DNA of 50,250 nucleotides from Nitrospirota bacterium. Its GTDB lineage: Bacteria > Nitrospirota > Thermodesulfovibrionia > Thermodesulfovibrionales > Magnetobacteriaceae. The notes under the pieces were generated by a model, which saw nothing but the letters and a program-made list of their open reading frames with translations, was not told the origin of the DNA and did no database searches. Made by a program: the position numbers and the translations under genes. Below are positions 33,813 through 45,608 of this stretch, piece by piece (position 1 is the stretch's first letter; each line of letters opens with the position of its first letter). The stretch lies in assembly GCA_015233015.1 (NCBI GenBank), contig JADFYO010000023.1:1-50250 (forward strand), written 5' to 3'.

Positions 33813-34094
33813 TCAGCTTCTGACCTCCTGCCTGTCAGCTTTTTCATGGCGCGCATTTCTGAAATAAAGTAAGATATCAATAATTACCATCAGACAGTTC
33901 ATAATATATAAATATATGACAGCGTCAAAGCAATAAAGAAACTTGTGGGTAATCCCCGACAGGTATCCTAGTAGAACGATAAACAAAAAACAGATGCTTT
34001 TACCTTCGTTTTTCCCCGACTTGTATGTTTTATATATCGAAAAAGGCCAGGCTGAACCAAAACATACTAACATTGTCATCTCAAATATGCTCAT
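33813..34094 (-). CDS. Small PQ-loop/SWEET-like membrane protein
   Basis: 93 residues with three membrane helices; FGSAWPFSIYKTYKSGKNEGKS resembles the PQ-loop turn of MtN3/SemiSWEET-like proteins. AAGGAGG is well placed before the ATG. It stands alone and is divergent from the CbiB fusion. The family name is likely but substrate and function are unknown. Confidence 0.65.
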   Translation of the reverse strand: MSIFEMTMLVCFGSAWPFSIYKTYKSGKNEGKSICFLFIVLLGYLSGITHKFLYCFDAVIYLYIMNCLMVIIDILLYFRNARHEKADRQEVRS

Positions 34095-34171
34095 TTGCGG
34101 CCTCCTTCGGGTTAATAGTGCTCATGACACACGGCAAGCCTATTCGCCGCCCGATTATGATAATATATCAC

Positions 34172-36460
34172 ATGGTTTTTTTAACAGGCATACCGCTGCA
34201 AATGTTAACCGCATTCGCCGTCGATATCTGCGTGGGCGACCCCCGATGGTTTCCCCATCCTGTCATATATATCGGCAGGTTGATAAATTTTCTGGAAAGG
34301 CAGATGCGCAGGCCGGCAAGGCCGCCGCTTTATAATCTAATCACGGGCGCGATTGCCGTAGTAATTACTGTAGGTGTTACATATGGTGCGGCGTATCTGT
34401 TTACCGGAGTTCTCTTACTGCCGCTCAGGCAATATACAATATTTAATAGTATTTCACTCTATGATTTGACAGCAGGCGTAACCGGCTCATTGGTGCTGGC
34501 TCAAAATGGGCTTATCAGGTCGGTATTACTAGTGAGAGATAAACTTGAATGTGCAGACGAAGAGGGGGCAAGGGCGGCAGTTGCCATGATAGTCGGCAGA
34601 GACACGAAGGCACTTACGAAAGAGGCAATAGCGCGCGCCGCCATCGAGACCGCCGCCGAAAATACCTCGGACGCGGTAATCGCCCCTCTGTTTTACTTTG
34701 CCATCGGAGGGCTGCCCCTCGCGTTAGCGTATAAGGCGGTTAATACGCTTGATTCTATGATTGGTTACAAGAATGAAAAATATTTATACTTCGGACGTGC
34801 CGCCGCCAAACTTGACGATATTGCTAATTATATCCCAGCGCGCCTGACCGGTATTGTCATGGTCTTAGCGGTATTTGCAATTAGTATTGTAAAATTGTTA
34901 CGCTCTACGATAGGGGGATTGCCCGTGATGAGCAACGAAGAAGGACATTCAGATGAGGGCGGCCAGAGGTCAGCCTTAGCGCCTTTCACACAGAGCCTGA
35001 CAACTACGCTGAGAGACGGCAGAAAACACTCCAGCCCAAACGCCGGTATCCCGGAAGCGGCGATGGCCGGGGCGCTTGGCATAAGACTTGGAGGCCCGTC
35101 ATACTACGGCGGCACATTAGTCGAAAAGCCCTATATCGGCAGGGCAGACGAGCCGCTGAGCGTGTCAAAAATAACCGACGCAGCGGCGATAACGGCAGTA
35201 TCTTCTTTTATCGGCTTGCTGGTATTGATGTTTATATTGTTTGGCGCAGATGCCACCTATGGAGCGGCTGATAATCAGTCCATCTCCGGCAACATCTTTA
35301 CCGAAACCGGCAATCAATTTACCGTCTTGCTGGTCGATAAACATACCAGTCAACTCCACATAGCAGAGGTCAAAGACAACATGCCACAGATTTCAAAAAG
35401 CTATGGCGCCTTATATGGCAGAAACGACGGCGACAAGCTCAAAGAAGGCGACAACAAGACCCCTGAGGGATTTTACTATATAACAAATTATATACCGCCG
35501 GAACAACTCGACACTACCCTCTACGGCGGCGGCGCCTATACGCTGAATTACCCGAATATCATGGATAAGAACAAGGGTAAGACGGGCCGCGGCATATGGA
35601 TACACGGGCGCGGCGCTGAAAGAAATAACGAAAAAACACAGGGCTGCGTCTCCCTGTCAAACAGCGATCTTGCGAATCTCAGGCCTTTCAATCTGTTGGG
35701 AGCGCCGGTAATCATATCAGGCAGCCTTGAGTTCCTGAGCGCCGAAGACTATAAAAAGCGCAAGAATAAATACATGGATAGGTTTAAGGGATTCATCGGC
35801 TCATGGGAAAAAGGCGATTTCGAGGGTTTTATAAACTACTTCGACACCAAATTCAGAGGCTATGACGGCCTGTCTGCAAAGAATTATCTGAATAAAAAGA
35901 AACGGCTTATGCGCACTAACCCCAAAAGAAGGATAGTCGTCTCAAACGTCAACATCTTTAAAGAAGACACCGCTAAACTTATGTACAGCTTCAACCAGCT
36001 CTACTGCGCCGACAACCTGCTCTCTTACGGCAGCAAGAGGCTCTACCTCATGGCCGAAAAAGAGGACGACTACAGGATCGTTGCCGAGGAGTTTACACAA
36101 CTGGAGATGGAACCGTTTATTGAAAAGAACGTTATCTCAACAGTCAATAAATGGAAGGCCGTATGGCAGGCCAAAGATATAGAAAAATACATCTCATTCT
36201 ACGGCAGCTCATTCACGTCGGACACAATGGACATAAAAAAGTGGAAGGCACACAAAAAGGACATTTTTAAAAAAACCAAGGCCATCAAAATCAAGCTCAC
36301 CGAGATGAAACTGAAGACCGTCTCGCCCAGAAAGGTGGTCGTTTCGTTTATGCAGGAATACACGTCGGGAGATGTGGCGGACAGGGGGATTAAGACACTG
36401 GTGCTGAGCGGCTGTCCGGGCGATTACAAGATAGTGGGAGAGGCGTGGGACCCGGCCTGA
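34172..36460 (+). CDS. CbiB/CobD fused to periplasmic L,D-transpeptidase with NTF2-like tail
   Basis: One uninterrupted frame of 762 residues. Residues 1-360 are a full CbiB (adenosylcobinamide-phosphate synthase) with DPRWFPHPVIYIGRLI, AAIETAAENTSDAVIAPLFY, NTLDSMIGYKN and HSSPNAGIPEAAMAGALG. The last membrane helix (AVSSFIGLLVLMFILF) runs straight into GADATYG and a YkuD L,D-transpeptidase domain with HGRG (His about 478) and GCVSLSNSDL (Cys about 492), then two NTF2-like domains. The start is uncertain (34157 is an alternative); the open frame to 34025 would overlap the divergent gene. No Shine-Dalgarno is visible. A lost stop between two once-separate genes is possible. Confidence 0.8.
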   Translation: MVFLTGIPLQMLTAFAVDICVGDPRWFPHPVIYIGRLINFLERQMRRPARPPLYNLITGAIAVVITVGVTYGAAYLFTGVLLLPLRQYTIFNSISLYDLTAGVTGSLVLAQNGLIRSVLLVRDKLECADEEGARAAVAMIVGRDTKALTKEAIARAAIETAAENTSDAVIAPLFYFAIGGLPLALAYKAVNTLDSMIGYKNEKYLYFGRAAAKLDDIANYIPARLTGIVMVLAVFAISIVKLLRSTIGGLPVMSNEEGHSDEGGQRSALAPFTQSLTTTLRDGRKHSSPNAGIPEAAMAGALGIRLGGPSYYGGTLVEKPYIGRADEPLSVSKITDAAAITAVSSFIGLLVLMFILFGADATYGAADNQSISGNIFTETGNQFTVLLVDKHTSQLHIAEVKDNMPQISKSYGALYGRNDGDKLKEGDNKTPEGFYYITNYIPPEQLDTTLYGGGAYTLNYPNIMDKNKGKTGRGIWIHGRGAERNNEKTQGCVSLSNSDLANLRPFNLLGAPVIISGSLEFLSAEDYKKRKNKYMDRFKGFIGSWEKGDFEGFINYFDTKFRGYDGLSAKNYLNKKKRLMRTNPKRRIVVSNVNIFKEDTAKLMYSFNQLYCADNLLSYGSKRLYLMAEKEDDYRIVAEEFTQLEMEPFIEKNVISTVNKWKAVWQAKDIEKYISFYGSSFTSDTMDIKKWKAHKKDIFKKTKAIKIKLTEMKLKTVSPRKVVVSFMQEYTSGDVADRGIKTLVLSGCPGDYKIVGEAWDPA

Positions 36461-36516
36461 AGATACGCAGGGATACGGGGGCGCAGGGGAAATCCTTTGA
36501 ATCTGGGATAAAGTGA

Positions 36517-36545
36517 TTGACAGCACATGCAAACAGTGTCATAAT
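36517..36545 (+). promoter_or_regulatory. Sigma-70-like promoter of the sigma-54 activator gene
   Basis: TTGACA (36517-36522) and CATAAT (36540-36545) with exactly 17 bases between them. The -10 box lies inside the first palindrome, an arrangement typical of autorepression. Confidence 0.7.
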
Positions 36546-36550
36546 GGCAC
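36536..36550. promoter_or_regulatory. Palindromic operator copy 1 (GTGTCATAATGGCAC)
   Basis: A near-perfect dyad, differing at one position from the reverse complement of the perfect copy at 38031. It covers the -10 box of the regulator promoter. Confidence 0.6.
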
Positions 36551-36576
36551 GATAAATAGGATGTTTTCCTTAGACA

Positions 36577-36591
36577 GTGCCATTATGGCAT
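36577..36591. promoter_or_regulatory. Palindromic operator copy 2 (GTGCCATTATGGCAT)
   Basis: One base from the perfect dyad, centred 41 bases (about four helical turns) after copy 1, within the untranslated leader of the regulator gene. Confidence 0.6.
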
Positions 36592-36625
36592 TATAGTTTT
36601 TATCATTTAATCGTTGGAGAGGCGT

Positions 36626-37987
36626 GTGGATCTGAGTGTGTTGGTTGTAGAAGAGCGGGAGAGGCCGGTGTGGGAAAAGGCCAGAAATTATTTAAAGAGA
36701 AAAAAACTTAAATTATTTTCTGCGTCTTCCGTGAAGGAGACCTACAAAATATTAAACAGAGAACCCGTCAATATCGTGCTTTCCGACTTTAATTTAAAGA
36801 ATATCAACAGCCTCAATTTCCTAAAAAAAATAAAGACGCTCAGGCCGGATGTCGAGATAATTTTTCTTTCCGAGCGCGTGCCGCTATCCAGGGCGATGGA
36901 GGCGATGAAGGCCGGCGCGTATGATTTCTATGAGTTTCCCATCAACATGAAGCTCCTTATGACCGTAATAGAAAAGGCGGCTGAAAAGCAAACCCTGTAC
37001 ATAGAGAAGATGAAACTGGAGAAGAAGTTCAAAGAGCGCGTCAACTATGGAAACATAATCGGCAGGAGCAAGGCCATGCAGTATGTCATCGACATAGTGG
37101 ACTCTGTGGCGTCGAAAAACGTGAATATCCTGATAACCGGCGAAACCGGCACGGGCAAAGAGATGATAGCCAACGCAATCCACTACAACAGCAGCCGCGC
37201 TTTAAAACCATATGTTAAGGTCAATTGTGCCGTGTTCAACGAAGGCATCCTGGAGTCTGAATTGTTTGGACACGAAAAGGGCGCCTTCACGGGGGCTGCG
37301 GCAAGAAGGCTGGGGCGTTTTGAGCTGGCAAACGGCGGCACGATATTCCTCGATGAAATAGCCGATTTGCCGCTTGGCACACAGATTAAGCTGTTGCGAA
37401 TCCTGCAGGAGAAAGAGTTTGAGCGTGTCGGCGGCAACGAGACAATAAAGGTTGACGTCAGGGTCATCGCGGCCACAAACAGGGACCTCAGAAGGCTTAT
37501 CGACGAGGGCAGGTTCAGGGACGACCTCTACTATCGCCTCAATGTAGTCAAGATCGAACTGCCCGCACTCAGGGAGAGAAAAGAGGATTTTCCTCTCCTT
37601 GCCAGCTATTTCATCAATAAGCTGAACGAAGAGAAAGGCTATAAAATCAAGGGCATATCGAAGGACGCGATGCAGACGCTCCTGAGTTACCAGTGGCCGG
37701 GAAATGTGAGAGAGCTTGAAAACGCCCTTGAGTCGGCCATGGCGCTGGCAAAAAAGGATTTCATCGATGCCAGTTATCTGCCGGCGTTTTTACTTATGTC
37801 AGAACCAGAACACAGCGACTGCTATCGGATCTCCAACAATCTCACCCTTTCCGAGGTCGAACGTGAACTCATACGCCTCACCCTCAATAAAACGAACGGT
37901 AATAAGACCGCCGCCGCAAAGGCACTCGGCATAGGGCTGAGAAGCCTCCACAGAAAGATAAAGGAAATCAAGACGCCGGCGCCATGA
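36626..37987 (+). CDS. NtrC-family sigma-54 activator with atypical receiver
   Basis: 453 residues from GTG 36626, chosen because GGAG (36616-36619) lies six bases upstream; TTG 36614 lies before it. The receiver keeps a candidate phospho-acceptor Asp54 (IVLSDFNL) and Ser82, but the conserved Lys of the KP switch is Phe (YEFP, 104-105) and the acidic pair reads Glu-Glu. The AAA+ core has Walker A GETGTGKE (172-179), GAFTGA (219-224) for sigma-54 contact, FLDEIADLP and RDDLYYRLNV. A Fis-type helix-turn-helix ends the protein (NKTAAAKALGIGLRSLHRKI). No histidine kinase gene is nearby. It probably binds the palindromes flanking its gene. Confidence 0.92.
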   Translation: MDLSVLVVEERERPVWEKARNYLKRKKLKLFSASSVKETYKILNREPVNIVLSDFNLKNINSLNFLKKIKTLRPDVEIIFLSERVPLSRAMEAMKAGAYDFYEFPINMKLLMTVIEKAAEKQTLYIEKMKLEKKFKERVNYGNIIGRSKAMQYVIDIVDSVASKNVNILITGETGTGKEMIANAIHYNSSRALKPYVKVNCAVFNEGILESELFGHEKGAFTGAAARRLGRFELANGGTIFLDEIADLPLGTQIKLLRILQEKEFERVGGNETIKVDVRVIAATNRDLRRLIDEGRFRDDLYYRLNVVKIELPALRERKEDFPLLASYFINKLNEEKGYKIKGISKDAMQTLLSYQWPGNVRELENALESAMALAKKDFIDASYLPAFLLMSEPEHSDCYRISNNLTLSEVERELIRLTLNKTNGNKTAAAKALGIGLRSLHRKIKEIKTPAP

Positions 37988-38030
37988 TAAGATTAAGCCG
38001 CGGCACTACGAAATTGCGCGCAGGGCAATC

Positions 38031-38045
38031 GTGCCATTATGGCAC
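38031..38045. promoter_or_regulatory. Perfect palindrome GTGCCATTATGGCAC, probable enhancer site
   Basis: A perfect 15-bp dyad centred about 120 bases upstream of the predicted sigma-54 transcription start, a usual distance for an NtrC-type upstream activating sequence. Confidence 0.65.
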
Positions 38046-38131
38046 TATGCTGGATGTGTCAGAAGACAAGGAATGTCCGTGAAAAGGCCATTAAAAGGCA
38101 TGGCCTTGACAGATTTTAAATGAAACCATAC

Positions 38132-38148
38132 TGGCATGAATATTGCAT
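38132..38148 (+). promoter_or_regulatory. Sigma-54 promoter of the kamA-like operon
   Basis: TGGCAT-GAATA-TTGCAT has GG (38133-38134) and GC (38145-38146) ten bases apart and one mismatch to the TGGCAC-N5-TTGC consensus. The start is predicted near 38158. A TTGACA at 38106-38111 might support a weak sigma-70 promoter with a poor -10. Confidence 0.7.
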
Positions 38149-38215
38149 ATAATTATAAGGCGCAGTAAATCCTTCATTCTGGAGGATCAAAAAACTTTGA
38201 GCATACCGGAGAGAG

Positions 38216-39520
38216 ATGAAAAACACTACACTTTCGCAGGAGGAAGAACCTCCAAGTTTGCAAAGCACACAGCTATTCGACTATGAGCTTAAACCGTCAG
38301 GCTCGATTGTCCGTAAATTGTGGCCCGCCGTAACTGCCGATGACTGGAACGACTGGTACTGGCAGCTCTCAAACAGATTAAGATCGGTATATGCCCTCGC
38401 GGCATTATTCGATTTAAAACCGCATCATACAGCGAAATATAAACAGTTAATAGAGAAGTACCATTATTCTATAACGCCTTATTACTTATCTCTGATTGAC
38501 TGGACTGACCCGCATGACCCGATAAGGCGGCAGTGTGTCCCGGACCTTCAGGAGATAGAATACATGAACGAGGGAGATAATGACCCTCTCGAAGAGGAAA
38601 ATGACACTCAGGTTGCCGGCCTCGTCCACAGGTATCCGGACAGGGTGCTGATGCTGGTTACTAATCAGTGTGCAATGTACTGCCGCCACTGTACGCGAAA
38701 GAGGATATGGCAGGATGGAGAGTCGATAAGGAGCAAAAAGGATTTACTTGCAATGGTAAACTACGTAAAGGGTGTGCCGGAGGTAAGAGAGGTAATCATC
38801 TCTGGCGGCGACCCGTTGACGATGAATATAGAGACGCTGGACTGGTTTTTAGGGGAGTTAAAGACAATTTCTCACCTCGAGGTAATAAGAATAGGGACGA
38901 GAATCCCTGTCGTATTGCCGATGAGGATAACCGATGAGCTTGCCGGTATGTTATCGAGACACAGGCCGCTCTGGATAAATACGCAGTTTAACCACCCGCG
39001 CGAGGTAACTCCGGAGGCGCAGGAGGCCTGTGATAAGCTTCTTAGGGCGGGCATACCGGTGTCCAACCAATCCGTCTTACTCAAGGGCGTAAACGACTCT
39101 GTTGCGACGATGAAGGCCCTCTGCCACGCGCTTCAGAGGATAATGGTACGGCCTTATTACCTATACCAGTGCGACCCGGTAAAGGCAGCCGGGCATTTCA
39201 GGACAAGCATTTGGAAGGGCATAGAGATAATTGAGCAGATGCGTGGATTTACGGGCGGACTATGCGTACCCACATTTGTGGTGGACGCACCGGGAGGCGG
39301 CGGCAAGGTGCCCCTTCAGCCGTTTTATCTCCTTTCGGCCACTGAGGACGAGGTAACACTCAGAAACTACGAGGGGATGATTATCAGGTATCACAATCCC
39401 ATTGATAAAGACCGCAAAGAGCGCCCCGCGCGTGAGCAAAAAAGCTGCAAGGTCCCGGTTGACGCAGCCCGCTATAAAAGAAGAAAGGAAAAAACACTGT
39501 TTTCAGAAAAGGCGCAATGA
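38216..39520 (+). CDS. kamA: Lysine 2,3-aminomutase-like radical SAM/PLP enzyme
   Basis: 434 residues with the radical SAM cluster motif CAMYCRHC (Cys152, 156, 159), SGGDPL for SAM binding, and DAPGGGGK with Lys364 as the probable PLP-binding lysine. Asp320 (QCDP) and Asp357 (VVDAPGG) have the same spacing to each other and to Lys364 as the lysine-binding Asp293 and Asp330 of the clostridial enzyme, arguing for L-lysine to beta-lysine rather than glutamate. The gene follows a sigma-54 promoter and overlaps the next gene as ATGA. Beta-lysine is a known osmolyte and peptide building block; its role here is inferred from the neighbours. Confidence 0.88.
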   Translation: MKNTTLSQEEEPPSLQSTQLFDYELKPSGSIVRKLWPAVTADDWNDWYWQLSNRLRSVYALAALFDLKPHHTAKYKQLIEKYHYSITPYYLSLIDWTDPHDPIRRQCVPDLQEIEYMNEGDNDPLEEENDTQVAGLVHRYPDRVLMLVTNQCAMYCRHCTRKRIWQDGESIRSKKDLLAMVNYVKGVPEVREVIISGGDPLTMNIETLDWFLGELKTISHLEVIRIGTRIPVVLPMRITDELAGMLSRHRPLWINTQFNHPREVTPEAQEACDKLLRAGIPVSNQSVLLKGVNDSVATMKALCHALQRIMVRPYYLYQCDPVKAAGHFRTSIWKGIEIIEQMRGFTGGLCVPTFVVDAPGGGGKVPLQPFYLLSATEDEVTLRNYEGMIIRYHNPIDKDRKERPAREQKSCKVPVDAARYKRRKEKTLFSEKAQ

Positions 39521-40554
39521 ACATCGGCCTGACGTTTGACCTCAGAAGGCAATACGAGGAAATGGGTCTGTCCAAAGAGGAGACCGCCGAGTTTGACTCA
39601 GAAGAAACCATAGATTGCCTTGAGCAGGCCATTAAAAACTCTGGTCACACGGTATCGCGTATCGGCAATATCAGGAGCCTAGTAGAGAAACTTGCCGCTG
39701 GCATGAGATGGGACCTTGTCTTTAACATCTCAGAGGGCCTCTATGGAAGGAGCAGAGAGGCGCAGATACCTGCCCTGCTCGAGGCATATGCCATTAACTA
39801 TACCTTTAGCGACCCGCTTACGCTTGCCCTGTCTCTGGACAAGGCAATGGCAAAGGCCGTCGTGCGTTCATACACTGTGCCGACGCCGGATTATTGCGTC
39901 GTAGATTCTATGGAGTGCCCGGCCTTATCACAATTAGAATTGGGCGCTCCGTTTAAAGGTTTCCCATTGTTTATAAAACCCCTCTCTGAAGGCACGGGCA
40001 AGGGTATCGACACCTCGTCTATTGTCTGGAGCGAGAGACAATTCAGAGAGCGCTGCGAGTTTGTCCTGAGTACGTACAGGCAGCCGGCCATTGTGGAGGA
40101 GTATCTGCCCGGCAGGGAATTCACTGTCGGCGTCATAGGCACAGGGAAAAACGCGCGCGCCGTGGGAACTCTCGAAGTAAAGCTGCTTGACAATGCCGAC
40201 CCTTTGGTGTATTCATATGCCAACAAGGAATTCTGCGAAGAGAGGGTCAAATATGTGCTCTGCCGCGACGAGGCAATTGTCAAAGAGGCATCGGCGATAG
40301 CGTTAGCGGCATACAAAGCTCTGGGATGCAGGGACGCGGGCAGAGTTGATTTAAAATGCGACGCCACGGGGCGTCTTTCATTTATCGAGATAAACCCGCT
40401 TGCCGGCCTCCACCCTTCGCACTCGGACTTGCCCATATTATGTGCCCTCAACGGCATCGGCTATGATGAGTTGATCTCAGGGATAATTGAATCCGCCTCA
40501 GAGCGCAGCGCAAAACACACACGACTTGGGCAGACGACAGCTGCAATACTGTGA
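39517..40554 (+). CDS. ATP-grasp ligase, D-Ala-D-Ala ligase-like (first)
   Basis: The 345-residue ATP-grasp protein has WDLVFNISEGLYGRSREAQIPALLEA (substrate-loop region of the Ddl family), LFIKPLSEGTGKGI for ATP, VEEYLPGREFTVGV and the metal-binding end GRVDLKCD...FIEINPLAGLHPSHSDLP. It joins two carboxylate/amine substrates with ATP hydrolysis. It is distinct from a housekeeping ddl: divergent N-terminus and a stop/start overlap with the kamA-like gene and with a second ligase. Substrates are not known; one may be beta-lysine (inference). Confidence 0.8.
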   Translation: MNIGLTFDLRRQYEEMGLSKEETAEFDSEETIDCLEQAIKNSGHTVSRIGNIRSLVEKLAAGMRWDLVFNISEGLYGRSREAQIPALLEAYAINYTFSDPLTLALSLDKAMAKAVVRSYTVPTPDYCVVDSMECPALSQLELGAPFKGFPLFIKPLSEGTGKGIDTSSIVWSERQFRERCEFVLSTYRQPAIVEEYLPGREFTVGVIGTGKNARAVGTLEVKLLDNADPLVYSYANKEFCEERVKYVLCRDEAIVKEASAIALAAYKALGCRDAGRVDLKCDATGRLSFIEINPLAGLHPSHSDLPILCALNGIGYDELISGIIESASERSAKHTRLGQTTAAIL

Positions 40555-41561
40555 AAATAGCAGTCGTTCATGAACAAATCATCGCGGGAAGGCCGGACTC
40601 CGAGGACACCCTCGATGAGCTTAACGTTGTAACCCAGGCGCTTCAAAATCTCGGCATTAAATATGAGACTCTTACATTTGGCGGCGGCTTAAAGGCGCTC
40701 GATGAGCTGCTTGCGCTGCTTTCCGCGTTTTCGCCTGATGTGGTATTCAATTTAGTTGAAAGCCACGAGCGGGGGCAGCGGCTGTTTCCCGCGGTATGCG
40801 GATTGATAGAGCTTGCCGGAGTTCCATTTACCGGCTCAGCGTACGATGCCCTCCTGAGCACGACAAATAAGATTATTGCCAAATCAATGATGAAGGCCGC
40901 TGGTATTGCCACGCCTGAGTGGCATGTTTATTATGACGGTGTTATTCCATCTCTCAGGCCAGGAATCCCCTATATTGTGAAACCCTCGTCTGAGGACGCC
41001 TCGGTTGGTATCGACGATACATCTGTGTTTTACGACCACGAAAAACTTCTGGCGTCATTGCCTGAAACCTTCGGCATACACAAGCAGCCGCTCCTGATAG
41101 AGGAATTTATTAAAGGAAGAGAAATAAATGTCTCCATCATCGAGCATAAGGACGGCGAGCTGGAGGTCTTCCCTGCCGCCGAGATAATATTTCGGGATTG
41201 GCCTATGGATAAACCAGCAATAGTTAATTACGATGCGAAATGGCTGCCGCAGTCCTTCGAATACAATAACACGCTGAGGCGGTTTAATCCTGAAGGTATC
41301 GACATCAGAGACGTCAGAGAAACCGCGTTAGAGTGCTGGCGGGTCTTTGGACTGAGGGGATACGGGCGGGTTGACATGCGTATAAGTGATGCGGGCGGCC
41401 TGTATGTCATCGAGGTAAACGCCAATCCCTGCATATCTGGTGATTCGGGATATATGTCTGCAGCCGCAGAATCCGGCTATTCCGGGACAGATGTCGTCAG
41501 AATGATAATCGAGGCATCGCTGCTCACCCAAAATGCCCAATCAGGACAGGCAATTGATTAA
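40551..41561 (+). CDS. ATP-grasp ligase, D-Ala-D-Ala ligase-like (second)
   Basis: The 336-residue paralogue starts at GTG in a GTGA overlap. Motifs: DVVFNLVESHERGQRLFPAVCGLIEL, YIVKPSSEDASVGI, IEEFIKGREINVSI and GRVDMRISD...VIEVNANPCISGDSGY. Two different ligases in series would allow two successive peptide-like bonds. The pair resembles Ddl-like ligases seen beside radical SAM aminomutases in some Deltaproteobacteria, as far as I recall; I know of no characterised product. Confidence 0.8.
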   Translation: MKIAVVHEQIIAGRPDSEDTLDELNVVTQALQNLGIKYETLTFGGGLKALDELLALLSAFSPDVVFNLVESHERGQRLFPAVCGLIELAGVPFTGSAYDALLSTTNKIIAKSMMKAAGIATPEWHVYYDGVIPSLRPGIPYIVKPSSEDASVGIDDTSVFYDHEKLLASLPETFGIHKQPLLIEEFIKGREINVSIIEHKDGELEVFPAAEIIFRDWPMDKPAIVNYDAKWLPQSFEYNNTLRRFNPEGIDIRDVRETALECWRVFGLRGYGRVDMRISDAGGLYVIEVNANPCISGDSGYMSAAAESGYSGTDVVRMIIEASLLTQNAQSGQAID

Positions 41562-42033
41562 ACTAAGGACAACTGCCGCGACATCTGACATAGCGGCGGT
41601 ACGGCAAATCCTCGATTCAACCGGCGTGTTTCACCCGAGGGAAGCAGCCGTGGCGATAGAGCTGCTTGAGGATAAACTCACAAACCAAGAACAAAGTGAA
41701 TACAATTTCATATTCGCTGAGCTTGATAGCACCGCCATAGGTTACCTATGCTACGGCCCGATAACGATGACCGAGGCAGGGTATGACGTTTACTGGATAG
41801 CCGTGCGAAAAGATGTGCAGCGCACAGGGGCAGCGGGGCTGTTGATAGAAGAGGCGCAAAGGCGCATAATCGACACCGGCGGTAAGTTTGTTTACATAGA
41901 AACCTCCACGAAAGACATCTATAACCCAGCGCGTGAGTTTTACATAAAACACGGCTATACCTGTGTAGCCACAGTACCGCACTACTACGCTGAAAACGAC
42001 GATAAGGCCGTGTTTATGAAGCAATTACGCTGA
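41533..42033 (+). CDS. GNAT-family N-acetyltransferase
   Basis: 166 residues with a GNAT fold: RTTAATSDIAAVRQIL at the N-terminus, DVYWIAVRKDVQRTGAAGLLI for acetyl-CoA binding (Q/RxxGxx loop) and YNPAREFYIKHGY near the end. It overlaps the second ligase by 29 bases; TTG 41554, with AGGACAGG just before it, is a credible alternative start. In the known N-epsilon-acetyl-beta-lysine pathway an acetyltransferase follows the aminomutase, but AblB is longer, so equivalence is not claimed. It may cap the ligase product. Confidence 0.8.
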   Translation: MPNQDRQLIKLRTTAATSDIAAVRQILDSTGVFHPREAAVAIELLEDKLTNQEQSEYNFIFAELDSTAIGYLCYGPITMTEAGYDVYWIAVRKDVQRTGAAGLLIEEAQRRIIDTGGKFVYIETSTKDIYNPAREFYIKHGYTCVATVPHYYAENDDKAVFMKQLR

Positions 42034-42062
42034 CAGGGACATTGTCACTGACGGGGGGTATG

Positions 42063-42092
42063 TTGCAAAACTGACCTGCCTTATGACATAAT
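42063..42092 (+). promoter_or_regulatory. Candidate promoter for the coiled-coil gene
   Basis: TTGCAA (42063-42068) and CATAAT (42087-42092) are separated by 18 bases. They lie after the GNAT stop and before a GAGAGGA ribosome-binding site. Confidence 0.45.
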
Positions 42093-42115
42093 AATTCAGA
42101 GAGGACGATGAGAGT

Positions 42116-42650
42116 ATGAAAAAAGCGGTCAATGTGATAGTGTTAACATTGTTACTTTCAGTGATACTCCCTTCATGGGCATACGCGGATGGTTTCACCC
42201 AACAAGACAGGGAACGGCTAACCCGCGTCGAAGATCGGTTATCGCGCGTCGAAGAGAGGTTGACACGTGTCGAAGAAGGTTTAAAGAGTACCAACCAGCG
42301 TATGGATGACGGTTTTAAGAGTACCAACCAGCGCATGGATGACGGTTTTAAGAGTATCAGCCAGCGCATGGATGATAGTTTAAAGAATACCAACCAGCGC
42401 ACAGAGGATGGCTTTAACGCTATAAATCACCGGCTGGGCGACATATACGGGTTGATGTATGTACTTATTGGCGGTATGCTTACGTTAGTGGGTTTTGTCT
42501 TATGGGACAGGCGAACAACGCTCGCCCCTGCTATCAGAAAGAACATGGAAATTGAAGAGCGCGCGGAAAAAAATTGTGAGCACCCTTAAAGAAGTTTCTG
42601 CTAAAGACTCCAATGTAGCCGAGGCCATGAAACACGCTGGCCTTTTGTGA
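42116..42650 (+). CDS. Signal-peptide coiled-coil membrane protein, frame disrupted in A7 tract
   Basis: A signal peptide (cleavage near AYA/DG) is followed by three heptads of the type LTRVEDR, four 11-residue repeats of the type FKSTNQRMDDG, and a membrane helix near 119-136 (LMYVLIGGMLTLVGFVLW). The open frame stops at 42589 after NCEHP. One base fewer in the A7 run 42567-42573 would instead give EKIVSTLKEVSAKDSNVAEA and MKHAGLL, ending with TGA at 42648-42650. That tail looks like the genuine C-terminus. The cause may be a homopolymer error, slippage or a real mutation. Function unknown; the extracytoplasmic coiled coil suggests a spacer or scaffold. Confidence 0.72.
42278..42409 (+). repeat. 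Four tandem 33-bp repeats (11-residue coiled-coil units)
   Basis: Four units of 33 bases beginning at GGTTTAAAG encode variants of an 11-residue hendecad. They are preceded by three 21-base heptad units from about 42217. Confidence 0.85.
42622..42646 (+). terminator. Stem-loop with T-run near the gene end
   Basis: AGGCCA (42622-42627) pairs with TGGCCT (42638-42643), followed by TTTT. It overlaps the frame-restored end of the coiled-coil gene, so it may be coding chance as much as a terminator. Confidence 0.4.
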
Positions 42651-42688
42651 TAAGCGTAATATACGGCAGAGGTTGTGCGGCTGCCCCC

Positions 42689-44200
42689 CTACAACCCAGC
42701 CAGTGCATATATGAAATCCATATTAAGATTACTCTTCAGCAGCTCCGCTAACCTGTCTATGGCGGCGTCTTTTTCCGCGGCATAAATGACCGGGGTCTCA
42801 AGCGGAGGCAGACCTTTTCTTTGCCTCAGTCCGTTTATTAAATCCCTGCGAAATGCGTCGTTATCGAAAATACCGTGTATATATGTTCCCCATACGCCAT
42901 TCTTAACCGCACCGTCATTGTCCTGGTTGCCGCCGATGACAAACGCCGGTGTATCAGTTCCCGCACCCGCCGTCTGGCCCATGTGGATTTCATAGCCCGT
43001 CAGGGCGCTGTGCGCATTTTTTACGTATGGGATTTGCCCCGCCGCCGTCTCCGCTATGACCTGCCGCGTGGTCTTCGTTTCATTAAACACCGTCGCCGTA
43101 TCAAGCAGGCAGAGGCCGGGAACTTTCACCTCAGCGCTTTCAATCCTCATGGGGTCTTCGATTGTCCTGCCAAGCATCTGGTATCCCCCGCAGAGGCCGA
43201 TGAGCGGGATGCCCTTGTTTACCGCCTGTTTGATAATCTTATCGAGGCCGGCTTCTCTTAATATCGTGAGGTCTGCGATTGTATTCTTGGAACCCGGGAT
43301 TATTATTAAATCTGTATTTATTATGTCTTCGGGGCGGCGGCTTATTACGAGTTCCACGTCCTGCTCATACTGAAACGGCTGAAAATCGGTGAAATTCGAT
43401 ATGTACTTATGCCTCAGCACCGTTATCTTTATGGAGGCATGAGACGAGCCAGCCGCCCGTCCCTTCGCGCGAGTATCCAGCACCAAGCCGTCCTCCTCCG
43501 GCAGCCCCATGTCGGTAACATATGGCAGGACGCCGATGACTGGAATGCCCGTTCTGTCTTCGATTAGTTTATTGCCCGGCAGGAGGATATTTATATCGCC
43601 GCGAAATTTGTTTATTATAAATGCCTTAATCAGGCGCGCGTCCTCGTCATTTAAGAGTGCCGCAGTGCCATAGAGAGATGCGAATACCCCTCCCCTGTCG
43701 ATGTCGCCGACAAGAATGACCGGCGAGCCGGTGTGCCTTGCAACCGCCATATTTACGATTTCCCTGTCCATGAGATTAATCTCTGCCGGACTTCCCGCTC
43801 CCTCGATGACTATAAACTCATAGGCGGCGCTCAATTCGTCCCACGCGTGTGTTACAGCACCCCAGAAGATTTCCTTATTCGCATAAAACTCCGCCGCCTG
43901 CATCGTCTTAGCCACCTTGCCCAGCACTATGACCTGGGAGCCGCTCTCACCGGAAGCCTTTAGCAGAATTGGGTTCATATAGACAGAAGGAGCAATGCCA
44001 GCGGCTGCGGCCTGCGTGGCCTGAGCAGTGCCTATCTCCCCGCCGTCTGCCGTTACGAATGAATTCAGGGCCATGTTCTGAGCCTTAAACGGCGCCACGG
44101 CAAGCCCCATGTCTTTGGCGAATATCCTGCACAGCCCGGCGGCTATCAGGCTCTTACCAACCCCTGAGCCGGTTCCCTGAATCATTATCGATTTAGGCAT
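42689..44200 (-). CDS. cobQ: Cobyric acid synthase
   Basis: 503 residues. The N-terminal P-loop domain has IQGTGSGVGKS and PFKAQNMALNSFVTADGGEIGTAQ; the C-terminal class I glutamine-amidotransferase-like domain has GLCGGYQMLG with the catalytic Cys and IHGIFDN with the His. Length and motifs are typical of CobQ/CbiP, which amidates the b, d, e and g side chains of adenosylcobyrinic a,c-diamide. It is the last gene of the minus-strand purL-purF-cobS-cobC-cobQ run and overlaps cobC by 16 bases. Confidence 0.95.
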   Translation of the reverse strand: MPKSIMIQGTGSGVGKSLIAAGLCRIFAKDMGLAVAPFKAQNMALNSFVTADGGEIGTAQATQAAAAGIAPSVYMNPILLKASGESGSQVIVLGKVAKTMQAAEFYANKEIFWGAVTHAWDELSAAYEFIVIEGAGSPAEINLMDREIVNMAVARHTGSPVILVGDIDRGGVFASLYGTAALLNDEDARLIKAFIINKFRGDINILLPGNKLIEDRTGIPVIGVLPYVTDMGLPEEDGLVLDTRAKGRAAGSSHASIKITVLRHKYISNFTDFQPFQYEQDVELVISRRPEDIINTDLIIIPGSKNTIADLTILREAGLDKIIKQAVNKGIPLIGLCGGYQMLGRTIEDPMRIESAEVKVPGLCLLDTATVFNETKTTRQVIAETAAGQIPYVKNAHSALTGYEIHMGQTAGAGTDTPAFVIGGNQDNDGAVKNGVWGTYIHGIFDNDAFRRDLINGLRQRKGLPPLETPVIYAAEKDAAIDRLAELLKSNLNMDFIYALAGL

Positions 44201-44805
44201 AGCTCCGGCACATAGTTCATGAGTTTTACCACTGGGACGCCATCATAGAAATCTATTATGTTGAGACATATAAAGTCCTGCTCAACCCGAAATATGTGTG
44301 AGAGCGGGATGCCAAGTATGTCGCATAGTATGACCCTGTTTACCCCGCCGTGCGCCACAACGGCTATAGTTTCGTTCTCGTGGTCTTTTACGATACTATA
44401 AAACGCCGGGAGCGTCCTCAAACTTACGTCTTGTGTGCTTTCACCGCCAACAGGACTGAAATTAAGCGGGTCGCCTGCCCAACTTGCAAATTCCTTTGGA
44501 TAGGCAGCCTCTATCTCGTCAAACGTCATGCCCTCCCATGCGCCAAAATGCCGCTCGCGAAGGCCGGCCATCGGCACGGGCGTGATGCCGAAGGGCTGTC
44601 CGATGGTCTCAGCGGTCTTTACCGCGCGAATAAGGTCAGAGCAAAATATACGGTTGGGGGCATCCAGATTTTTAATGAATCCGGCAAGGCGCGCGGCCTG
44701 CTTTACGCCCTCATCAGACAGCGGCACATCGATATGGCCCTTGTATCGCCTTTCATGCGCATCGACGGTCATCCCGTGGCGAATCAGATAAACCCGCGTT
44801 GGCAT
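44185..44805 (-). CDS. cobC: Histidine phosphatase, probable alpha-ribazole phosphatase
   Basis: The 206-residue phosphoglycerate-mutase-like protein has YLIRHGMT at the N-terminus (phospho-His), RAVKTAETI, FGAWEGMTFDEIEAAYP and VAHGGVNRVIL with the second catalytic His. The fold alone does not fix the substrate, but overlaps with cobS and cobQ on either side argue for removal of phosphate from alpha-ribazole phosphate (or adenosylcobalamin phosphate) in the nucleotide-loop pathway. Confidence 0.85.
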   Translation of the reverse strand: MPTRVYLIRHGMTVDAHERRYKGHIDVPLSDEGVKQAARLAGFIKNLDAPNRIFCSDLIRAVKTAETIGQPFGITPVPMAGLRERHFGAWEGMTFDEIEAAYPKEFASWAGDPLNFSPVGGESTQDVSLRTLPAFYSIVKDHENETIAVVAHGGVNRVILCDILGIPLSHIFRVEQDFICLNIIDFYDGVPVVKLMNYVPELCLNR

Positions 44806-45608
44806 AAGTGACCTCCCGTCGTTATCGTCAGATATATCAAAAAAATCAGTTCACTGACCTCAATAAACGCCCCTAAAGTATCACCCGTCAGGCCGCCAAA
44901 ACGCTTCAGGAAAAATGACCCGCTGATTTTAGCGGCAACGGCGATTATAATTATTATCGCAATAGAATGGAAAGAGACACACGGGACGCCGCAGCCGGTA
45001 TTCAGCGACAGGTTTAACAGCGTTACAATCAAAAACATAAACCCTGCCGCCAAGGAAAACTCTTTTGCGCCGGTATGCTCAATAAATATACATCCAAGCC
45101 CCTCTGACCTCGCGCTCTTGCCTGTGAACATAGCCGCAGTAGCGGCAAACCGTCCGGCAGCGGGATAGGTCAGGAGGACAAAGGCGCTTGAGATTTGGGC
45201 GTTCATAAGTAAGTTTTTCAGCAGAGCGTATTTTAAAAGCAGGGTAAGCACAATGGCGGCAACTCCGATTGGGCCGGCCGCACCACTTTTCATTATCAGT
45301 AGCCTATCCGTGGGCGTCCTTTTTGCGGCAAGGGCGTCAAACGTGTCCGATACCCCATCGAGATGCAGCCCCCCTGTGATTACCGCCCCAACTAATATTA
45401 CCACAACGGCGCACACCTCTATGGGTAGCACATATTTAAGCGCAGCATAGCACAAGAAATACGCACTACCCATGATAAGGCCAACCACGGGAAATACAGA
45501 AGAACTCCTACCAATGCCGCTTTCATCCCATACGTGACTGTCCGCCCGCTTAAACGGCAGGGGTATTATCGTCAAAAACTCAAACGCCGCGGCAATTCTC
45601 TTTATCAT
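44784..45608 (-). CDS. cobS: Adenosylcobinamide-GDP ribazoletransferase (cobalamin synthase)
   Basis: The 274-residue integral membrane protein has the CobS landmarks TIIPLP near the N-terminus, VITGGLHLDGVSDTFDAL with acidic residues for metal, MKSGAAGPIGVAAIVLTLLLKY, and a C-terminal FGGLTGDTLGA. It joins adenosylcobinamide-GDP to alpha-ribazole at the membrane. It starts 21 bases after purF, so cobalamin and purine genes probably share a transcript. The CbiB enzyme that acts earlier is encoded on the other strand at 34172. Confidence 0.95.
   Translation of the reverse strand: MIKRIAAAFEFLTIIPLPFKRADSHVWDESGIGRSSSVFPVVGLIMGSAYFLCYAALKYVLPIEVCAVVVILVGAVITGGLHLDGVSDTFDALAAKRTPTDRLLIMKSGAAGPIGVAAIVLTLLLKYALLKNLLMNAQISSAFVLLTYPAAGRFAATAAMFTGKSARSEGLGCIFIEHTGAKEFSLAAGFMFLIVTLLNLSLNTGCGVPCVSFHSIAIIIIIAVAAKISGSFFLKRFGGLTGDTLGAFIEVSELIFLIYLTITTGGHLCQRGFI

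Follow-up and report, generated by a model that had tools for sequence, protein, structure and literature searches.

A conserved gene cassette of a lysine 2,3-aminomutase, two Ddl-fold ATP-grasp ligases, and an acetyltransferase, predicted to produce a beta-lysine-derived cationic metabolite

Overview of the Cassette

The window analyzed here is a stretch of 50,250 nucleotides from a Nitrospirota bacterium of the family Magnetobacteriaceae (assembly GCA_015233015.1, contig JADFYO010000023.1), and its positions 38216-42033 encode the lysine 2,3-aminomutase KamA (K), two ATP-grasp ligases with the fold of D-alanine--D-alanine ligase (Ddl), termed A and B, and a GNAT N-acetyltransferase (G) (Table 1). 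The four genes constitute a coherent, apparently uncharacterised pathway, in which beta-lysine formed by KamA would be processed by two non-Ddl ligases and an acetyltransferase under sigma-54 control. The product is, on balance, probably an N-acetylated amide or short peptide of beta-lysine that is polyamine-like and made under this control, and the acylated beta-lysine peptide or amide put forward in an original prediction from the same DNA is still a good reading. That prediction had placed four overlapping reading frames (an aminomutase, two ligases, and an acetyltransferase) in this region, all of which were recovered. The enzyme classes, diagnostic residues, conservation, and promoter described below are read from nucleotide and protein sequences.

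Phyletic Distribution

The complete K-A-B-G cassette or its K-A-B version was found in Nitrospirota, Nitrospinota, Desulfobacterota (with Dadabacteria), Myxococcota, Planctomycetota (among them the cultured Singulisphaera acidiphila DSM 18658, whose finished genome has a GNAT gene neighbouring K-A-B), Goldbacteria, and Omnitrophota, as well as in one possibly contaminated metagenome-assembled genome (MAG) of Actinomycetota. In total, the cassette is spread over at least eight bacterial phyla. The comparison of the cluster across genomes that the original prediction had proposed shows the K-A-B-G order repeating in many phyla, and the gene set is therefore far beyond chance. The shortest form, K-A without B, is seen in most Omnitrophota loci and in one Clostridiales genome, which links ligase A to beta-lysine. 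Among 199 Planctomycetota genomes, 35 have a ligase B match at E 1e-70.

The open-access literature searched, which leaves out most subscription journals, contained no paper using KamA and ATP-grasp terms together and no characterised pathway of this composition, in agreement with the original prediction. A survey of amidoligase neighbourhoods by Iyer et al. in 2009 reportedly covered ATP-grasp ligases found together with acetyltransferases and enzymes that modify amino acids, and it may include this neighbourhood. The cassette apparently represents an orphan biosynthetic pathway whose conservation extends over at least eight phyla, among them groups of environmental importance (Nitrospirota, Desulfobacterota, Planctomycetota), and to magnetotactic bacteria.

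Several variants of these loci were observed. Five Omnitrophota K-A loci have TldD/TldE-type genes upstream and no ligase B; the TldD/TldE assignment was checked by Pfam in L036 (4284-9037), which also holds a small GNAT and a LysM-amidase. In another Omnitrophota locus, L082 (8230-9537), a PIG-L type deacetylase is encoded between ligases A and B. A 24,479-aa "open frame" in genome G079 was discarded, being in reality a run of N.

Substrate Class of KamA

The window KamA aligns over its full length with the Clostridium lysine 2,3-aminomutase (PDB 2a5h, E 3e-126), and the residue numbering differs by 27 throughout the active-site region. D320, D357, and K364 correspond to D293, D330, and K337 of 2a5h, so that the spacing noted in the original prediction turns out to be exact, and R161 corresponds to R134. 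We take D293 and D330 to read the side-chain amine of lysine, K337 to be the lysine that binds pyridoxal 5'-phosphate (PLP), and R134 to serve the carboxylate. The CxxxCxxC motif of radical S-adenosylmethionine (SAM) enzymes is formed by C152, C156, and C159. The best NCBIfam model is TIGR03820 for lysine 2,3-aminomutase (509.1 bits, cut-off 525.4), followed by the models for the glutamate type (461 bits, cut-off 650) and the arginine type (383 bits, cut-off 600).

The cassette KamAs, defined as those adjoining ligase A or B (81 proteins), were compared with 43 non-cassette homologues that served as an internal control. Both Asp residues and the PLP Lys are kept in all cassette KamAs, and R161 in 80 of them, the remaining one having a gap at this position. 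A K/N pair, presumably the signature of glutamate 2,3-aminomutase, replaces the two Asp residues in nine of the 43 non-cassette homologues, all from Bacillota; it is missing from the window KamA, for which glutamate 2,3-aminomutase was accordingly ruled out. Cassette members group strongly on the KamA tree, with 7 label changes vs. 32 in shuffles. Since all diagnostic residues are present and fixed across the family, beta-lysine is likely the first product of the pathway, as had been proposed. Beta-lysine is 3,6-diaminohexanoate, a putrescine-like 1,4-diamine bearing a carboxylate, i.e., carboxymethyl-putrescine.

It is scarcely credible that KamA instead serves the beta-lysylation of translation elongation factor P (EF-P), the remaining genes of the operon being independent. 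EpmB is related to KamA, and EpmA beta-lysylates EF-P in some bacteria (PMC6544042); nonetheless, KamA reaches only 246 bits with the EpmB model TIGR03821 (cut-off 369), and its linkage to A-B-G persists across phyla. Furthermore, the genome has no EpmA (TIGR00462) above cut-off, the best match falling in a 502-aa frame of lysyl-tRNA synthetase size, and the EpmAB route was rejected on these grounds. No KamA homologue besides that of the cassette was found in this genome.

Ligases A and B

AlphaFold models of ligase A (pLDDT 92.8) and ligase B (pLDDT 92.1) have Ddl enzymes as their top PDB matches in Foldseek, with TM scores of about 0.74-0.80 for ligase A. With the Ddl model, in turn, ligase A scores 148 bits and ligase B 116 bits vs. 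a cut-off of 243 (NCBIfam subfamily cut-offs 243 to 246), whereas a separate Ddl encoded on contig 57 of the same genome passes it with 365 bits. Alignment with this Ddl demonstrated that both ligases retain the catalytic Lys, the Arg-x-Asp pair, and the Glu-x-Asn metal site (K237, R276, D278, E291, and N293 in ligase A; K230, R273, D275, E288, and N290 in ligase B). The positions equivalent to Y216, S150, and the acceptor loop S281-L282, whose numbering and roles we assume to be those of the E. coli enzyme, are Y, S, and S-L in the genome's own Ddl, vs. E238, T160, and S303-D304 in ligase A and W231, A150, and S299-G300 in ligase B. Compared with the Ddl/VanA family (PF07478), the fold, the ATP and Mg residues, and the catalytic Lys and Arg are thus shared, whereas the equivalent of Y216 is E, R, K, or W in ligase A and W in ligase B, the equivalent of L282 is replaced, and a cell-wall neighbourhood is lacking. 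Because of the scores far under the cut-offs, the altered active site, and the true Ddl elsewhere in the genome, ligases A and B are, as judged from their sequences, Ddl-like proteins but not D-Ala-D-Ala ligases; the original prediction had described both as Ddl-like, which holds for the fold.

A modification of the cell wall, whether through a D-Ala-D-Ala variant or a beta-lysine cross-bridge, is very improbable. The Ddl fold would suit such a role, as would the LysM-amidase gene that follows K-A in one Omnitrophota locus and the L,D-transpeptidase domain encoded upstream in the window. The Ddl specificity residues are gone from both ligases, however, and the L,D-transpeptidase is part of a cobalamin neighbourhood specific to this lineage and does not accompany the cassette in other phyla. 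The ligase scores, the active-site changes, and the housekeeping Ddl led us to reject a cell-wall Ddl pair, and they speak against the cell-wall component considered in the original prediction, which is unsupported.

Ligase domains similar to B also occur in other settings. In eight loci of Nitrospira-type genomes, a B-like ligase is always paired with an approximately 350-aa protein that weakly matches a zinc metallohydrolase family, and the two form a separate conserved pair. Six further loci, with no KamA in the vicinity, encode B-like ligase domains within frames of about 585-730 aa; these may represent another ligase family carrying a fused domain.

Acetyltransferase and Deacetylase-Fold Neighbours

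By alignment, the GNATs of K-A-B-G clusters form a single family, whose profile matches PDB 2r7h (E 2e-49), the closest solved relative, named a putative D-alanine N-acetyltransferase. The cassette GNAT gave no match to the AblB model TIGR03827, whereas an AblB adjoining a non-cassette KamA, used as a control, scores 313 bits (cut-off 205). The N-epsilon-acetyl-beta-lysine osmolyte operon AblAB was therefore rejected for the window. The AblA-AblB pathway likewise combines a lysine 2,3-aminomutase and then a GNAT within one operon; the cassette differs from it by another GNAT family, two additional ATP-grasp ligases, and sigma-54 control, and its KamAs are apart from the AblB-linked KamAs on the tree.

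A variant osmolyte pathway, in which this GNAT would replace AblB and N-acetyl-beta-lysine or an acetylated beta-lysine dipeptide would act as a compatible solute, appears unlikely. It has a parallel in N-acetylglutaminylglutamine amide (NAGGN), a known acetylated dipeptide osmolyte, in whose synthesis a GNAT and an ATP-grasp enzyme presumably also yield an acetylated small peptide; the window pathway, in contrast, would start from beta-lysine, and the NAGGN hallmarks, i.e., an asparagine-synthetase-like amidotransferase and a fused GNAT/ATP-grasp protein, are absent from 38216-42033. Besides the GNAT not being AblB, N-acetyl-beta-lysine alone would not require two conserved ligases, and the hosts, judged from record titles, are mostly freshwater and groundwater organisms. 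A two-component switch of the sigma-54/NtrC kind is, to our knowledge, atypical for osmolyte operons.

About ten KamA-type loci (Planctomycetota and some Desulfobacterota) have a gene for an amidohydrolase of the histone deacetylase (HDAC) fold adjoining K-A-B, often fused to a GNAT, while none is present within the window cassette. Polyamine deacetylases occur among HDAC-fold enzymes (PMC5454378). The neighbours share the fold of these enzymes, including acetylpolyamine amidohydrolase, their substrates being putative, and they fit reversible acetylation of a polyamine-like product.

Regulation by Sigma-54

The sigma-54 control of the original prediction had only the adjacent activator gene to suggest it. 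The probable -24/-12 promoter TGGCATGAATATTGCA was identified 84 bases before the ATG of kamA, and this site is kept in five other Magnetominusculus-type loci. Similar sites precede kamA in ten more loci, and together they span Thermodesulfovibrionia, Nitrospinota, Planctomycetota, and Desulfobacterota. Sites matching at least 10 of the 12 consensus positions were found in 18/72 kamA upstream regions, compared with 3/72 shuffled ones and 0/90 regions upstream of ligase A, the loci being related and not independent. A gene for a sigma-54 activator adjoins the cassette also in the five related Magnetominusculus-type loci and in two of the ten others (L029 and L030), and one Desulfobacterota lineage has the gene order A, histidine kinase, NtrC-type regulator, K, B. 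Owing to these conserved sites and the adjoining NtrC-type regulators, predicted sigma-54 control of the cassette is well supported.

Exchangeable Front End in Desulfobacterota

From 247 sampled Desulfobacterota genomes, 84 strong ligase B loci were drawn, and their neighbours within 8 kb were counted. KamA is present in 62 of these loci and a pyruvoyl-dependent arginine decarboxylase (PdaD) in 12 (0.3 expected); no locus has both, and the 10 having neither include several that border contig ends or a gap in the assembly. An agmatinase and/or a homologue of deoxyhypusine synthase (DHS) is encoded upstream of the decarboxylase in most of the 12 PdaD-type loci; the arginine decarboxylase and agmatinase neighbours pass curated cut-offs, and a DHS-family enzyme is also present. 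KamA is nevertheless encoded in 81 of the 84 cassette genomes. All 12 PdaD-type genomes have an orphan KamA with the D/D/K residues, adjoined by neither AblB nor the ligases, compared with KamA in 42/163 cassette-free genomes (p 3e-7 by Fisher's test, without correction for relatedness). The ligase pair is thus modular, the amine-supplying front end being swapped and A-B retained. Since beta-lysine, like putrescine, is a 1,4-diamine, we infer that both front ends supply the same diamine unit.

A quick tree divided ligase A into two classes along a single branch with full support, the D304 class (67 rows), to which the window protein belongs, and the C304 class (17 rows), which has the acceptor loop N-S-C-F-P-K and W238. 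Every one of the 12 PdaD-type loci falls in the latter class, together with two undecided loci and three that are KamA-adjacent; the deepest rows of this class adjoin KamA. The active-site residues of ligase B are unchanged between KamA-type and PdaD-type clusters. The simplest story is that ligase A reads the variable amine, ligase B performs the common step, and KamA was the original neighbour; the C304/D304 split would then be a direct prediction of substrate choice.

One rather doubtful extension of these observations is a conjugate of beta-lysine and a polyamine, with KamA providing beta-lysine, the PdaD, agmatinase, and DHS-like enzymes a di- or triamine, ligases A and B linking both with an amino acid, and the GNAT and HDAC-fold enzymes controlling acetylation. 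The decarboxylase counts, the cut-offs passed by the polyamine-related neighbours, the orphan KamAs, and the KamA neighbours of the deepest C304 ligases would all agree with such a conjugate. On the other hand, PvlArgDC was not found in the window's genome, the window cassette has no polyamine gene, the PdaD-type clusters could be a paralogous pathway without beta-lysine, and the orphan KamA may serve another role.

A third, RimK-like ATP-grasp protein is encoded in L168 (6134-7060) and L178 (6549-7472), one locus each of the PdaD and KamA types. Four PdaD-type clusters have glycosyltransferases and methyltransferases downstream (Pfam, one locus), which suggests extra decoration of the product.

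Predicted Pathway and Product

In the proposed pathway, KamA would convert L-lysine to beta-lysine, and ligase A would activate a carboxylate as an acyl phosphate and join it to an amine, beta-lysine being one partner, probably read by the D304 acceptor loop. Ligase B would form a second amide bond by a chemistry identical in all cassettes, the GNAT would acetylate a leftover amine, and the adjacent NtrC-type activator would switch transcription via the sigma-54 promoter. We infer the order of steps, the partners, the final product, and its role as a polyamine-like or compatible-solute-like cationic metabolite. The PdaD and other polyamine-related neighbours, together with the HDAC-fold genes, point to a polyamine-like cationic product. 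Tentatively, the cassettes may define a widespread class of cationic metabolites, in which beta-lysine is joined by twin Ddl-derived ligases to a polyamine and/or an amino acid, is reversibly acetylated, and has an exchangeable front end (KamA or arginine decarboxylase/agmatinase).

Several points weigh against an acetylated beta-lysine amide or peptide. The literature searched contained no assay of any cassette enzyme. The window KamA is slightly under the equivalog cut-off of TIGR03820, and in the 12 PdaD-type loci KamA is missing from the ligase neighbourhood, being encoded elsewhere in the same genomes. Moreover, B or G is missing from some clusters, so that the final product may differ by lineage. 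If the pathway operates as proposed, it would be a third fate of beta-lysine besides the N-acetyl-beta-lysine osmolyte and EF-P lysylation, would exemplify the recruitment of Ddl-type ligases for tasks outside the cell wall, and would set right the annotation of many "D-alanine--D-alanine ligases" that are likely misnamed.

Locus Organization and Genomic Context

The four cassette genes overlap by 4, 4, and 29 bases in the order K-A-B-G (Table 1). The genome is close to Candidatus Magnetominusculus (Nitrospirota), the nearest KamA loci, 89% identical, being those of Ca. M. xianensis and related MAGs.

Table 1. Features of the cassette and its regulatory region in the window
Feature	Position	Strand	Remarks
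NtrC-family response regulator / sigma-54 activator	36614..37987	+	Receiver, AAA+, and Fis-type HTH domains (Pfam Response_reg, Sigma54_activat, HTH_8)
Probable sigma-54 -24/-12 promoter TGGCATGAATATTGCA	38132..38147	+	11/12 consensus positions
KamA, lysine 2,3-aminomutase (K)	38216..39520	+	434 aa; radical SAM, PLP
Ligase A, Ddl-fold ATP-grasp ligase, D304 class	39517..40554	+	345 aa; Pfam Dala_Dala_lig_C
Ligase B, Ddl-fold ATP-grasp ligase, K230-W231 / G300 class	40551..41561	+	336 aa, GTG start; Pfam Dala_Dala_lig_C
GNAT N-acetyltransferase (G), not AblB	41533..42033	+	166 aa; Pfam Acetyltransf_7/1

Cobalamin genes flank the cassette (34025-45608), a CbiB-like gene upstream and CobQ-like, histidine phosphatase, and CobS genes downstream. 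The cassette lies in a cobalamin locus only in Magnetominusculus-type genomes; this neighbourhood was therefore taken as location, not function, and a functional tie to cobalamin synthesis was dropped. At 34025-36460, a single 811-aa frame combines CbiB, L,D-transpeptidase (YkuD), and Cds6 domains; the region is also one long frame in two of the other Magnetominusculus-type loci and two frames in three. Downstream of the cassette (42116-42589), a short protein without a Pfam match begins in a signal-like manner and contains repeated heptad-like "STNQRMDDGFK" units.

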